In this document: piece after piece, positions 425 to 20,111 of the stretch
How positions within the stretch are numbered: position 1 is the first letter of the stretch
Layout of the letters: every line of letters begins with the position of its first letter
Origin: Flavobacterium sp.
GTDB taxonomy: Bacteria > Bacteroidota > Bacteroidia > Flavobacteriales > Flavobacteriaceae
Assembly: GCF_028689845.1 (NCBI RefSeq)
Contig: NZ_JAQVCH010000001.1
Coordinates: 124,001-188,000 of the forward strand
DNA: 64,000 nucleotides
Direction: 5' to 3'
Program-made: the position numbers and the translations under genes
The notes under the pieces: model-generated
The model's database searches: none
Seen by the model: only the letters and a program-made list of their open reading frames with translations
Told to the model about the DNA's origin: nothing

Positions 425-3400
425 TTAACGAACTCTATTAACATAAATCCATCCTGTAGTATTAGTACCTTCTGTAAAGTAAATTACAAAATAATAGGTT
501 CCGTCAGGTAAATCATCGCCTTTATCGGTTTGACCATACCATTCGTTTTCATAATTATTTTTGCTATATACTTTTAGTCCGTATCTATTAAAGATCTCTA
601 ATTTGCTAACGTTATAGTTTGCTAAATCAAAGTAATCATTACTACCATCGTTATTTGGAGAAATACCCTTTTGAATCGTACAATTTTTAATTGTTACTTG
701 AAAATCTGATTGGGCTGAACATCCATTGTTGGTTGCATATATGTAGATTAACTGTGATGTTGTTACATCCGAACCTGGCTGTAATGGCGTACCCGTTCCG
801 TTTGGACCCGTATAGTAAGCATTACCTGCATTTAATTCTGGTAAGGTATATTTTCCACATTCTTCTACATCACTTAAATCTTGAGCCATTACTTCTACAA
901 TCGTCACGGTAAAACTTGTTTCATTGAAACAGTTTGGCGTGGTTCCACTTTGGGCATAAACATAAATCGTTTGTGATTCTGTTACACTGTACGGAAGATT
1001 TAATTGTTGACCTGTTGCTCCAGGACCAGTATAGTAACTGTTTCCTGAACTTAAAGGTTGTAATTCAAAACCTCCGTCTGATAAACAAGCTGTAGCATTT
1101 TGAACAACATCGGCTGTTGGTGTTGCAAAAACTTCAATAGTCATCGTAGTTCCTATAGCACATAGGCCAGCTGTTGGTGTAAATGTGTAGGTAGTAGGTC
1201 CGACTTGTTGCGTATTAATGGTAGAAGGATTCCAAACTCCTGTTATGTTTTCAATTGAGGACACAGGTAATTGAGGAGCTGTACTTCCTTGACATAATGA
1301 CGCAATTTGTGCAAACGTTGCCGTTTGTGGTGCTTGTATCGTTATTTCTAAGCTAGTTCCTAAAGCACATTGATTAGGGTCTGCAGTGAAAACATACGTT
1401 GTTGTGCCCACAATAGTAGTATCAACAGTTGATGGCAACCAAGAACCAGTTACGCCGTTAGTTGATTCTAATGGAAGCGTTGGTGATGCTCCATTTTGAC
1501 AAATCGGTGCAATGGCATCAAAAGTCGCTGTAACAGGAGTACTTATAGTGATTACTAACTCAGTAATAATAGCACATTCAATGGTTGCATCGGGAGTAAA
1601 GACATAAGTCGCATCTCCTAAGGTTGCAGTATCAATTATAGCTGGTTCCCATGTTCCAGGAACACTGTTATTTGAAGTTGGTAATGCATCAGGTGTTGCA
1701 TTTTGACAATAGGTTGTCGTAATGGCATCAAATGTAGCTGCTATAGTTGGTTTCACTTCAACGATTAAACCTGTTGCAATAGCACATTCAAAAGTACTAT
1801 CTGGCTCAAAAGTAAAGGTAAACTCTCCGGCTGTACTTGTATCGATTGTGCCATTCCATTGCCCGGTAATTCCTTCTAAAGAAGTAGTTGGCAATACCGG
1901 TGCTTCTGAACCTTGGCAAATTGAAATTGGATCAAATGTTGGAACAATTTCGGTTGAAACAGTGATGAGCAAGGTTAAACTTACCGCACACTGACCTGCA
2001 TCTGGAGTAAAGGTATAAGGAACGTCAACAACTGCAACCGAAGTATCTATTGTTGCTGGACTCCATGACCCTGTTATTCCATTAGTAGATGTAGTTAAAA
2101 CATCTGGTGATGCATTTAAACAATATGCCGTTACAATTGGATCAAAAGTTGGAACAATTTCATCATTTATTGTAATTAACAACGTAAATGTACTTGCACA
2201 CTGACCTTCGTCAGGAGTAAACACATATTCAGCATCATTTACAGCTACCGAAGTATCAATTGTTGATGGACTCCATGAACCAAGCACTCCATTTAAAGAA
2301 GTAGTTGGTAATTCGTCAGCTGTTGCTCCAATACAATAAGTTACTGATATTGGATCGAATGCAGTATCAAAAGGAACAATTACTTCAACAGTGATTGTAA
2401 CTGGAATTGCACATTCATAAGTTGCATCAGGTGTAAAAGTGAAATCAAATTGTCCTGCGACACTCGTGTCAATTAAACCATCCCAAGTTCCCGTTACTCC
2501 TTCTAAAGAAGTATCTGACAATATTGGAGCATCGGCACCTTGACAAACTGAAATTGGATCAAAAGTTGGAACAATTTCGGACGCCACAGTGATAAGCAAT
2601 GTAACTGGTAACGCACATTGACCTTCGTCAGGTGTAAACACATACGGAGCATCAACAATTGCAACTGATGTGTCAATTATTGAAGGACTCCATGTTCCTG
2701 TTATTCCATTAGTAGCCTCAGCTAATATATCTGGTGTTGCATTTAAACAATATGCCGTAACAATTGGATCAAAAAGTGGTGTTGTTTCTTCAATTACAGT
2801 TACTGTAAGCGTTGTAGAAGTCGCACATTCAGCAGAACCAAATGGTTCAAAAACGTATTCAACTGTTCCTACAACAGAAGTGTCTACCGTAGATGGTGTC
2901 CAAAGACCCGTAATTCCATTTAATGAAGTAGCAGGTAAATCTGGTGCTGTACCGTTTAAACAGATGTTAGGAATTGCATCAAATTCAGGAACAATTTCGT
3001 CTGTCATTGTTACTTCAAAACTTCCTTCACTTGTACAGTCGCCATTAGTTCCACTAATTACTAAATAAACATAAATAGTTGTGTTTTCTGTAATAATATC
3101 ACCTGCACTTAATGGTTGACCTTGACCTCCAGCTTCTGTAAAATAGTTTCCTATAGCTAAAATAGGCAATTCGTATCCAACAGTAGCACAAACTGTTACA
3201 TCGTCTTGAACTGGTAATTCCTCACCTATAATGTTTAATAAGATGGTGTCTGTTGTAATTGTTTCTCCTCCACCACAGGCAGCATAAATTGCTTGAGCTG
3301 TCATACTTGTCGTTTCAGATACACACACATTTATACTTAAATCACTACTATAAAATTCACCATCTTTTAACCACGAGAATGTTACGTTAGATGGTCCAGC

Positions 3401-6400
3401 AGGTGTAAATCGCCATGCTTCATTAGAAGCAGACCATGTTCCTGTATTTCTTCCTGGTGGAACGTGAGCTTGTGTACCCGCTTGGTTTTGAATACCAAGA
3501 ACTCCGTTTCCTGAATTCCAGTTTAAACAGGGAACACGATTTTGAACATATATTTCAATTGCATTTGACGTTTCATATAAAACGATTTGACTCGTTTGAA
3601 GCGGCACGTTTGTATTACAACTAAATTGAGCTAATTGTGAGAAGTTAACCACTAATACACGACAAGGAGCTGTTCCAAGAACTTGATAATTGATACTTGG
3701 TTGAGCAGGTGGTGTTGTTACGTTAGGGTTAATGTCTTGATAAGGACCATAAATCGCAGCCTTAATTGGAAAACCAACGTTTGGAATGGTTTGCGTAAAT
3801 GGCCAAGCACAATATCCGCCAGCTGCCTGAGCACCTCCAGGAACTACTCCCTGAATATCAAAACTAATTACTCCATTTGAACCTACTAATGCTTTGGTAT
3901 AATTTTGACCAAAGAAACAGAAGTTAAATGGTAAATCAATTGCTGGTGACCACACGTCATCTGTATTTACAGAGGTTGGAATACCTCCTGTAAAAGGGAA
4001 TGGCGGTGTAAATGGTATACTAGTAATATTATAAGTTGTGGTATCTCCTGTTTCAAAGAAAGAAGCAGTTAAATCTACACAGTTTTCACCTGGACATAAG
4101 TTTAATACACCTGGCGTTGACGTTTGTAAATCAATATCAACTCCGGCACAACCTGGTAAAGCGGCAAGGATAAAGAAATTTTGTGGTCCTGCCCATGCAC
4201 TTTTATCTGTAGGAGAACAAATTGCTCTTACATAGAACTCATAGAAACCTGCACTTAAGCCTGTTGCCGTATAGGGGTTTTGAGAAGTAATTACTCCCGC
4301 TGTTGCTGGAATACCAGCACCTACTGCCTGAACTACAACTTCAAATAAAGTAGCAGGAGCAATGTTTGTCCAAGACAAGGTAGCGGTATTTGTATCTGCT
4401 CCAATAACAATTAAGTTTATTGGTGCAGGACAAGTTGGTAAAGTCGTTGCCGTAGCAGGACCAGCCCATGTACTTGTTGGGTTTACACCAGTACAAAGTG
4501 TACGTACATAAAAATCATATGCTGTACCTGCGGTTAAACCAGGTACTATAAAAGGATTAGATGTTGCAGGAATTCCAGGAGTAGCCGCAGTTGGAGCAGG
4601 AGAACCTGCTGGTAAAGCAATTACTTCAAAGTTAGTTCCTCCATTAGGAGTCCAACCTACTGAAACTTGATTTATTCCGATATTGGAAGTTACAACATTA
4701 AAAGGAGCTAAACACTCTGGATTTAAACAATCTACATTGCCACTGTATAAAATCGTTCCTACTAATCCAGCAGAAGCCACATTCATATTATAAAGAGATT
4801 GTCCAAAAGGATTTATAATTTCCACTCGTACTTCAGCTGGCCAGTTTCCTGGCACACTCCAAAATAACTCAAATGGAAGGTTATTACATAATGGAACTTG
4901 AATATTTACAGGTCCTGCACCATTATTGAATGTTCCTCCAATTGTAGCGACAATAATTCCATTTTGACGCACTTGCATTAGACCGCCATTCCAACCATCA
5001 CCAAAACTGTCACGCAATCTAAATATATAATTACATTGATCAGCAACGGCACAAATGGTTGTGTTAAATGAAGAAACTGGTGTCCAATTACTTGGTGAAG
5101 TTGTACAAAGAGCTCGCACATATACATCATATATGGTTGCAGCAGTTAATCCTTCTATTGTAAATGGATTGTCTGTTGTAACTGTTCCAGTGCTTGTGGC
5201 AGTTGGAGCAGGTGAACCTGCTGGCAATACAATAACTTCAAAATTTGTAATTCCAGGAATTGGTGTCCAAGATACATTGGCAGAAGAATCACCAATGGCA
5301 GAAAAAGTAATTCCAGTTGGTGGTAAACACTCAGGAATTCCACATTCTACTAAATTGTCTGTATATAAAATGGTTCCTACTAAGCCAGCAGAAGCCACGT
5401 TCATATTGAAAACTTGTTGATTAGAATCATTGATAATCGCCACCCGGATTTCAGCAGGAAAATTTCCTCCAGCATTCCAAAACAAGTCAAATGGTAAATT
5501 GTTACACAACGGCACAATTATATTTATCGGTCCTGCTCCTGCAGTAAAAGTAGTTCCTATTGTAGCGACAACAATACCGTTCTGACGTACTTGCATTGTT
5601 GCTCCATTCCATCCATCTCCAAAACTATCGTTCAAACGGAACGTGTAATTACACTGTTCAGAAATTTGACAAATTGTTGTATTGAAAACCTTTACTGGCG
5701 TCCAATTACTAGGGGTTGGTGTAGCACAAATTGCTCTAATATAAACATTGTATATTGTACCTGATGTTAAGCCTTCAATTAAAAAAGGATTATCAGAAGT
5801 CACCGTTCCTGTACTTGCAGGTGTTGGAGCCGGCGAACCATTTAATAAAACAATCACTTCATATTGCGTTACTCCAGGAATTGGTGTCCAAGAAACATTG
5901 GCACTCGTGTCACTAATATTATTGACTACAACTCCTGTAGGAGGTAAACATGCTGGATTATTACAATCAACTGTTCCTGCATACAATACGGTTCCCACTA
6001 AAGGAGCAGAAGCCACCGTCATAGCATATAACGATTGATTAAAAATTGGCGAGTTAAAGATCTCCACACGAACTTCATTAGACCATGTTCCTCCTACACT
6101 CCAAAATAAATCAAAAGGAATACCAGTACATAGAGAAACTTGTATGTCTATCGGCCCAGCACCTGCGGTAAAGGTTTCACCGATAGTTGCTATCACAATT
6201 CCGTTTTGACGCACTTGCATTCTCGCTCCATTCCAACCATCACCAACACTATCTCTCATTCGGAAAGTATAGATACATTGTTCTGCTGGTTCACAAATTG
6301 TGGTATTGAATGCAAAAGGACCAGCCCAAGCACTAAATGTTCCGTCGCCACAATCTCTTCTAACCCAATATTGATATTGTGTAGCGGCTTGAATTGGCGT

Positions 6401-10833: not shown

Positions 10834-11181
10834 TTAAAGCATTCCCAATTCTAGTTTAGCTTCTTCGCTCATCAAGTCTTTTGTCCATGGCGGGTCAAAC
10901 GTGATTTCTACTTCACATGATTTTACAGCGTCCAAAGATTTAATTTTTTCTTCTACTTCCATGGGTAAGGTTTCTGCAACCGGACAGTTTGGTGATGTTA
11001 ACGTCATTAGTACTTTTACATCGTTATCTTCATTAATCATGACATCGTAGATTAAGCCTAATTCATAAATATCAACCGGTATTTCTGGATCATAAATGCT
11101 TTTTAAAACTTTTACTACATCTTCTCCTAAGTTGATTTCATCTTTAAATTCTTCCATAATTATTGTTTTTTTTAAACACAT
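10834..11181 (-). CDS. SUF-associated iron-sulfur assembly protein, DUF59/MIP18 (SufT-like); likely start 11157
   Basis: YDPEIPVDIYELGLIYDV ... LTSPNCPVAETLPMEVEEKI ... FDPPWTKDLMSEEAKLELG. Confidence 0.9.
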   Translation of the reverse strand: MCLKKTIIMEEFKDEINLGEDVVKVLKSIYDPEIPVDIYELGLIYDVMINEDNDVKVLMTLTSPNCPVAETLPMEVEEKIKSLDAVKSCEVEITFDPPWTKDLMSEEAKLELGML

Positions 11182-11710
11182 GAGTCAATTCAATAACTCA
11201 TTAATTTCTTGATTTTGTAAACTATTTTTTTGCGATTGGCTTATTTGACTTATATGGTTCATTATTTTTAAACGCTTTTTTTAACCATATGAGTCATAAA
11301 AGTTATTCCCACTTCTTATTAATTTATTGATTTTGCAAACTTTTTTTGCGATTAGCTTATATGACTTATATGGTTCATTATTTTTAAACGCTTTTTTTAA
11401 CCATATGAGCCATATAAGTTATTCCCTCTTCTTATTAATTTCTTGATTTTGTAAACTATTTTTTTTGCGATTAGCTTATATGACTTATATGGTTCATTAT
11501 TTTTAAACGCTTTTTTTAACCATATGAGTCATATAAGTTATTCCCACTTCTTATTAATTTCTTGATTTTGTAAACTATTTTTTTTGCGATTAGCTTATAT
11601 GACTTATATGGTTCATTATTTTTAAACGCTTTTTTTAACCATATAAGTTAATTCAATAACTCATTAATTTCTTGATTTTAATCTTTTATTGCGATTGGCT
11701 TGCATGATTA
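11182..11710. repeat. Tandem array, ~4 full units of ~116-119 bp, each with an imperfect ~20-bp-stem hairpin
   Basis: gcgatt(g/a)gcttat core at 11232, 11348, 11467, 11586 (partial at 11691); hairpins approx. 11240-11302, 11356-11418, 11475-11537, 11594-11647. Confidence 0.95.
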
Positions 11711-11740: not shown

Positions 11741-12160
11741 TTAATTTTTAGCATCAAAAGCCAACGCATACATTTTAATTTGTTTAATCATTGAAACCAA
11801 ACCGTTTGCTCGAGTGGGCGACAAATGCTCCTTTAAACCAATTTTATCGATAAAATCAGTGTTTGCTTCAAGAATAGCCGCTGGTTTTTGATGTGAAAAA
11901 ACGCGGATTAAAATTGCAATAATTCCCTTAGTTAAAATCGCATCGCTATCGGCAGTAAAAACAATTTGTCCGTCAGCTTCTTGCCCTTGTAGCCATACTT
12001 TAGATTGACAACCTTTGATAATATTGTCATCGGTTTTATATTGCTCTTCAATCATCGGCAATGTTTTTCCTAATTCAATAATGTATTCGTAGCGTTGCAT
12101 CCAATCGTCAAACATCGAAAATTCATCTACAACTTCATCTTGTATGGCTTTGATGGTCAT
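11741..12160 (-). CDS. sufE: SufE family cysteine desulfurase activator
   Basis: YIIELGKTLPMIEEQYKTDDNIIKGCQSKVWL (active Cys in IKGCQS) and SPTRANGLVSMI. Confidence 0.93.
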   Translation of the reverse strand: MTIKAIQDEVVDEFSMFDDWMQRYEYIIELGKTLPMIEEQYKTDDNIIKGCQSKVWLQGQEADGQIVFTADSDAILTKGIIAILIRVFSHQKPAAILEANTDFIDKIGLKEHLSPTRANGLVSMIKQIKMYALAFDAKN

Positions 12161-19721: not shown

Positions 19722-20111
19722 TTACTGAAACTTAGTTCCTTTAAAATCTTTTTTGTTTAAATATGATATAAAATTGTTTATTTTTCCACTTAAATTTTCA
19801 AAATCAATTTTTAATTGATTGAATTTATCTTCTTTTATATAATTACAATCAAAAACTCTATACAATTGAGATCTAGTTTCACCTGCTGATCCTTTTGCAA
19901 TTGATAGAAACTGTCTGAATTCTAAATTTCCATTCCTTTCAAATCCTTCTGCAATATTATCCATTATAGAACCTGATGACGCTTTTATTTGATCTTTAAA
20001 TCTAAAGTCTGTTTTTAACTCTGTTTCTACACAAATTAGATGAATTTCTTTTGCCAACCTTCGTGCTTCTTGCCAAATTTCTAAGTCTTCAAATTTAGTT
20101 ATTGTTGCCAT
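19722..20111 (-). CDS. Four helix bundle protein (23S rRNA-intervening-sequence-protein-like)
   Basis: FEDLEIWQEARRLAKEIHLI...FRFKDQIKASSGSIMDNIAEGFERNGNLEFRQFLSIAKGSAGETRSQLYRVFD. Confidence 0.93.
   Translation of the reverse strand: MATITKFEDLEIWQEARRLAKEIHLICVETELKTDFRFKDQIKASSGSIMDNIAEGFERNGNLEFRQFLSIAKGSAGETRSQLYRVFDCNYIKEDKFNQLKIDFENLSGKINNFISYLNKKDFKGTKFQ

Follow-up and report, generated by a model that had tools for sequence, protein, structure and literature searches.

The described systems that most resemble the repeats reported here are the REP/RAYT systems, or REPtrons (PMC3733652, PMC6006769). In both cases short palindromic intergenic repeats occur in many copies, and a gene that is often single-copy and vertically inherited is flanked by its cognate repeats. 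Furthermore, the repeat type tracks the protein clade, and relic repeats can persist in genomes that lack the gene. In the TIRtrons, RAYT-like genes (TIRYT) carry long terminal inverted repeats (PMC3733652). Here a gene is likewise flanked by inverted repeats with copies elsewhere in the genome, but it encodes a PD-(D/E)XK protein and not a tyrosine transposase. MITEs, which include BrickBuilt of Porphyromonas gingivalis (PMC4596501), are likewise small, non-coding and bounded by inverted ends, and lie in intergenic regions of Bacteroidota. BrickBuilt has a 23-nt tandem repeat within one element, whereas here whole elements plus a linker are repeated (PMC4596501); the present elements also differ from MITEs by the cognate nuclease gene that was found with them.

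This gene, present at orthologous sites, is a member of the GxxExxY family (TIGR04256/PF13366, PDDEXK_3). In the literature searched, mostly papers available without subscription, no work links GxxExxY to repeats and none contains the repeat sequences. The analysis points to the GxxExxY-linked iteron elements as a repeat family new to description, linked to a nuclease and spreading through the genomes of Flavobacterium.

Anatomy of the array between sufE and SUF_assoc

The window is the whole stretch of 64,000 nucleotides of Flavobacterium DNA that was analyzed. A first-pass annotation had placed a tandem array between sufE and a SufT-like gene on the same strand; both neighbors are confirmed, on the minus strand. 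The gcgatt cores lie at 11232, 11348, 11467, 11586 and 11691 and reproduce the spacings of 116, 119, 119 and 105 bp given there, and the arms of about 20 bp and the variant common to both array ends were found again. TRF reports a period of 119 with 3.8 copies and 94% matches (11200-11648), and a repeat-family search of the window gives 4 copies of 123 nt at spacings of 116/119/119. The sequence CATATAAGTCATATAAG, allowing up to 3 mismatches, matches 8 times in the window, 7 of them inside the array, with 0.36 expected and none in 100 shuffles (0/100).

The hairpin units drawn earlier keep their arms but were one register off, and what had been taken for the loop is the 23-bp linker between elements. 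Read in its natural unit, CATATAAGTCATATAAG-inner-CTTATATGACTTATATG, the array consists of five elements of 73-96 bp plus four linkers. On the coding (minus) strand the inverted-repeat ends read AACCATATAAGTCATATAAG ... AACTTATATGACTCATATGGTT. We prefer this frame since it matches the orientation of the dispersed copies in congeners, and also because the gene-bearing form makes sense in it. Among the pairs listed in the genus survey whose opposite cores are under 250 bp apart, all 26 read CATATAAG...CTTATATG, and none (0) was reversed. The features are as follows.

11741..12160, minus strand: sufE, upstream neighbor of the insertion site (PF02657, 4e-47)
11637..11709, minus strand: E1, 73 bp, adjoins sufE; degraded outermost left arm CATGCAAG, with AACTTATATGGTT as right arm and AATGAGTTATTGAATTAA as inner variant
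11614..11636, minus strand: linker E1/E2, 23 bp, AAAAAAAGCGTTTAAAAATAATG
11518..11613, minus strand: E2, 96 bp, AACCATATAAGTCATATAAG - inner - AACTTATATGACTCATATGGTT
11495..11517, minus strand: linker E2/E3, 23 bp, identical to AAAAAAAGCGTTTAAAAATAATG
11399..11494, minus strand: E3, 96 bp, same plan as E2
11376..11398, minus strand: linker E3/E4, 23 bp, identical to AAAAAAAGCGTTTAAAAATAATG
11283..11375, minus strand: E4, 93 bp, plan as E2 but shorter by 3 bp
11260..11282, minus strand: linker E4/E5, 23 bp, identical to AAAAAAAGCGTTTAAAAATAATG
11174..11259, minus strand: E5, 86 bp, adjoins SUF_assoc; intact left arm, with GACTCATGTGTTT as right arm and the inner variant of E1
10834..11181, minus strand: SUF_assoc (SufT-like, FeS_assembly_P), downstream neighbor (TIGR02945, 1.8e-43)

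The true start of SUF_assoc is probably the ATG GAAGAA near 11157, judging from the congeners, which begin at MEEF. The minus strand of the array has a predicted fold of -109.6 kcal/mol (z = -7.7), and the array gave no Rfam match at the gathering threshold, only sub-threshold miRNA matches. A CRISPR array, with identical repeats and unique spacers, is ruled out by this anatomy, in which whole units including the linkers are repeated. An assembly artefact is an unlikely origin, because the units differ from each other, the array lies within a 317-kb contig and the same design occurs in another species.

The core in other arrays and in the suf gap of congeners

The search with one unit against the genome and its relatives, as outlined in the first-pass annotation, gave a divided answer. 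The core is common to five more arrays of the same genome, while the full array is absent from the relatives, i.e. from every other genome among the 250 of the genus searched. The five arrays are all built on the 17-bp core CATATAAGTCATATAAG, the pattern of which matches 44 times in this genome versus one control match.

C21:1-945, period 177: at a contig end, cores in both orientations
C28, period 54/112: 13 cores, all in one orientation
C39, period 96: 11 cores, all in one orientation
C52, period 138: four cores, only minus at the threshold used
C57, period 107: cores in both orientations

The units of the six arrays are unrelated apart from the core. The window array has cores in both orientations. 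Because the cores of C28 and C39, and perhaps also of C52, have a single orientation, an RNA hairpin is not the feature that the six arrays have in common; this feature is the 9-nt iteron pair.

The linker of the C21 array (L031:1-945) contains an open reading stretch ending in ...RLMKDFATVAQQQAVKKLH*. It is perhaps the duplicated 3' end of a neighboring gene, which hints that flanking DNA was amplified together with the element.

The core is present in 84 of the 150 genomes surveyed in the genus, at 0-90 copies per genome and with a control near zero. Two of the core-bearing loci are the sufE/SUF_assoc gap itself, and there the core frames a GxxExxY open reading frame. A tblastn search with this suf-site protein found an intact gene at the site in eight genomes, plus one partial record; all eight genes have TTAAACATATAAGCCATATAAG...CTTATATGACTTATATGTTTAA, or a near variant of it, as their frame. 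The gene-bearing element is about 500 bp long and consists of a GxxExxY gene of 135-138 codons within inverted pairs of the 9-nt iteron CATATAAGT.

The gap was then compared in 59 congeners. In many of them it measures 2-20 bp, or the genes overlap. In others it holds the GxxExxY element or inserts that lack a gene and carry iterons of the CATATAAG, CATTAAG or CACGAATT type, and in one genome (L153) a degraded GxxExxY remnant. The CATTAAG type was met first in these gene-less inserts, and its cognate gene was found later. No target-site duplication is evident in the gaps compared, the empty ones having diverged too far for a target to be defined.

Further GxxExxY genes occur in the genome of the window. 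One, of another subfamily, lies beside a 90-bp tandem array (L284, C62:8200-11500) and has on its other side long repeats which extend into an assembly gap. Another (L285, C61:7500-10900) is framed by GCCACGAATTCAC/GTGAATTCGTGGC, and this frame resembles the CACGAATT inserts that other species carry in the suf gap.

The GxxExxY proteins and their iterons

The suf-site protein matches only PDDEXK_3/GxxExxY (PF13366, TIGR04256), and the family is present in 121 of the 150 genomes of the genus and in 59 of the 118 genomes that represent the phylum. PADLOC detects a weak similarity to Cas4. A structure model from 34 aligned sequences (pLDDT 94) has SSO0001 (Cas4) as its best PDB match (E 1e-3), followed at lower rank by Holliday-junction resolvases and RecE/LHK-type exonucleases. 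Residues D73, E83 and K85, which form a D-ExK active site, are invariant across the three subfamilies defined below. The gene is under purifying selection, with a median dN/dS of 0.18 among subfamily A genes and values of mostly 0.04-0.09 between close ones. The predicted fold, the active site and the selection make it very probable that GxxExxY is an active and conserved DNA nuclease.

A CATATAAG core on every GxxExxY gene was ruled out (0 of the first 30). The search therefore turned to iterons specific for subfamilies, and these were then found. When scored against a profile built from the suf-site proteins, the GxxExxY genes of the 150 genomes fall into subfamilies A (at least 222 bits), B (about 180-200 bits) and C (about 150-165 bits). 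Subfamily A occurs in 24 of the 150 genomes; in 24/24 its gene sits in the sufE/SUF_assoc gap and carries ends of the CATATAAG type. Subfamily B has CACATAG-type ends, in 14/14 by eye and in 13/14 by the automatic count, which missed a one-base variant. The ends of subfamily C are CATTAAG in 12/12 genes examined.

In the phylogenetic tree B and C each form one group (100/98 and 99/96), and B is nested inside A, so that the change of site and the change of iteron coincide. A comparison of neighborhoods placed A at one site, the suf site, and the sister subfamilies elsewhere, B at four sites and C at two. Since A occupies a single orthologous site, its 24/24 represent one historical association, and the match between iteron and clade rests on few independent relocations. 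From these comparisons the genes appear to be mostly vertical residents, which occasionally move together with their ends.

Flanking inverted repeats are not restricted to these subfamilies. With a score of at least 14 they surround 20/30 GxxExxY genes in the genus sample and 12/29 in the phylum sample; the controls gave 0/30 for L21 genes and 0 for shuffles. The iterons are symmetrical about the gene: CRCRRAG occurs upstream 62 times forward versus 9 reverse, and downstream 88 times reverse versus 0 forward.

The window contains at 19722-20111 (minus strand), within the suf cluster and adjoining sufC, a four-helix-bundle gene of the 23S_rRNA_IVP type (TIGR02436), bordered by two to three inverted copies of a different iteron, TTTAAAG. 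In 11/30 cases such genes of the genus are flanked by inverted iterons of a type peculiar to them, and three congeners (L286, L287, L288) have a related gene beside sufD of this cluster.

Repeats of the CATATAAG and CACATAG types also occur as dispersed copies that contain no gene, with up to 179 cores per genome. For CACATAGNNACATAG the count is 0-179 per genome with hardly any control matches, often as +/- pairs about 115 bp apart, and the interiors are alike in three species. Two or more CACATAG repeats occur in 32/33 genomes with a B gene versus 38/117 without (p = 4e-12, relatedness ignored), and CATATAAG repeats in 21/25 genomes with an A gene versus 54/125 without (p = 3e-4, relatedness ignored). 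The cross combinations of gene and repeat type show a weaker association. We assume that gene loss accounts for the repeats in the 54/125 genomes without an A gene.

A gene-less tandem array with a period of about 55 bp and CACATAGGCACATAG cores in a single orientation was seen in another genome (L340, G132:C161:5000-7000, about 760-1290).

With dispersed multi-copy extragenic palindromes and a gene flanked by the same repeat, the system would work like REP/RAYT (PMC3733652, PMC6006769), but it lacks two of the defining features. The cognate gene matches PDDEXK_3/GxxExxY only and not an HUH Y1 tyrosine transposase, its product being a putative PD-(D/E)XK nuclease with a Cas4-like fold; and a GTAG or CGTC foot is absent from E1-E5 and the linkers on both strands. 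A further difference is that the arms are direct iterons of 7-10 nt.

As short non-coding elements with terminal inverted repeats at several genomic places, the repeats could also be an ordinary MITE/REP family that is moved by an unrelated transposase (e.g. RAYT, IS), with the GxxExxY gene as a captured passenger. The high copy number of the dispersed elements and the interiors conserved in some of them between species do look MITE-like, and RAYT subclasses of atypical structure have been published for Bacteroidetes (PMC6006769). A partner gene with the same ends exists, and it belongs to the putative nuclease family. However, three GxxExxY subfamilies each with its own iteron would not be expected of a chance passenger, unrelated GxxExxY genes across the phylum are likewise framed by inverted iterons, and no transposase gene was found in the element loci examined. 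We therefore consider a passenger gene unlikely. The MITE/REP-like label of the first-pass annotation was in the right neighborhood, as this is a dispersed inverted-repeat family of 84/150 genomes in which tandem arrays recur; the cognate nuclease gene, which relatives carry at this site, could not be seen from the stretch alone.

Origin and meaning of the array

The window array agrees with the frame of subfamily A in its CATATAAG iteron, its inverted arms and its sufE/SUF_assoc site. It contains no nuclease gene, and subfamily A was not found in this genome; the array is therefore classified as a derivative of the GxxExxY-linked iteron elements. The anatomy, the core, the gene-bearing orthologous sites, the mapping of subfamilies to iterons, the co-occurrence and the purifying selection on the gene are direct observations. 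We consider it likely that the array is a gene-less, tandemly amplified form of the GxxExxY inverted-repeat element at the home site of the gene. Each subfamily would have an iteron type and a long-lived home site of its own, with repeat-only copies dispersed or in tandem elsewhere. In the genome of the window the suf-site gene would have been lost, and five gene-less elements plus linker would now occupy its place. The nuclease may recognize its own iterons, perhaps as extruded hairpins, and cut there. Repair or integration after the cut would copy the element, so that the repeats are propagated or maintained, and tandem growth may proceed via slippage or unequal exchange at the cores.

The inner ends of the array are weakly similar to the gene's 3' end (ranks of about 450-4,450 among the 128,000 positions of the window). 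This is suggestive, albeit weakly, of a GxxExxY 3'-end remnant inside the units; the sequence thus does not establish descent from a gene-bearing form. In one congener (G022) the B gene has on both sides an 81-bp tandem array, built of complete B-type elements, with 7.1 and 4.1 copies. This is the architecture of the window array with the gene still present, and it is the best intermediate available.

The strong predicted folding and the co-directional placement between suf genes would suit a locus-specific RNA device, i.e. a chain of hairpins that stabilizes, attenuates or processes the suf transcript. Such a device is nevertheless very improbable. The array sequence occurs in none of the other genomes among the 250, the gap of congeners is empty or has unrelated inserts, two and perhaps three of the six same-core arrays cannot form such hairpins, and Rfam gives no match near threshold. 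Hence the hairpin chain, attenuator or stabilizer of the first-pass annotation finds no support as a shared function. A neutral satellite, in which an old hairpin grew by slippage with no tie to an enzyme, would fit the homogenized species-specific units and identical linkers, and copy-number change requires no enzyme; it is equally improbable, since it leaves unexplained six arrays of unrelated units with one 17-bp core and the cognate gene at the same site, although neutral slippage may be right for the amplification step alone.

A wider proposal can be made, which we regard as tentative. The GxxExxY proteins may be Cas4-like nucleases that recognize the inverted repeats of their own iterons and propagate them through Bacteroidota, as a RAYT-like system with an unrelated enzyme. 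Gene-less copies and arrays would be its products, and the specificity switches (CATATAAG, CACATAG, CATTAAG) would track the clades.

These results connect an abundant and functionally blank protein family with a concrete signature in DNA and with an activity that can be tested. They also suggest where a class of bacterial repeats and satellite arrays, tied here to no transposase, may come from. If the nuclease recognizes the iterons, the subfamilies are a ready series of natural specificity switches; and if it is proved to propagate the repeats, the system would be categorically new.
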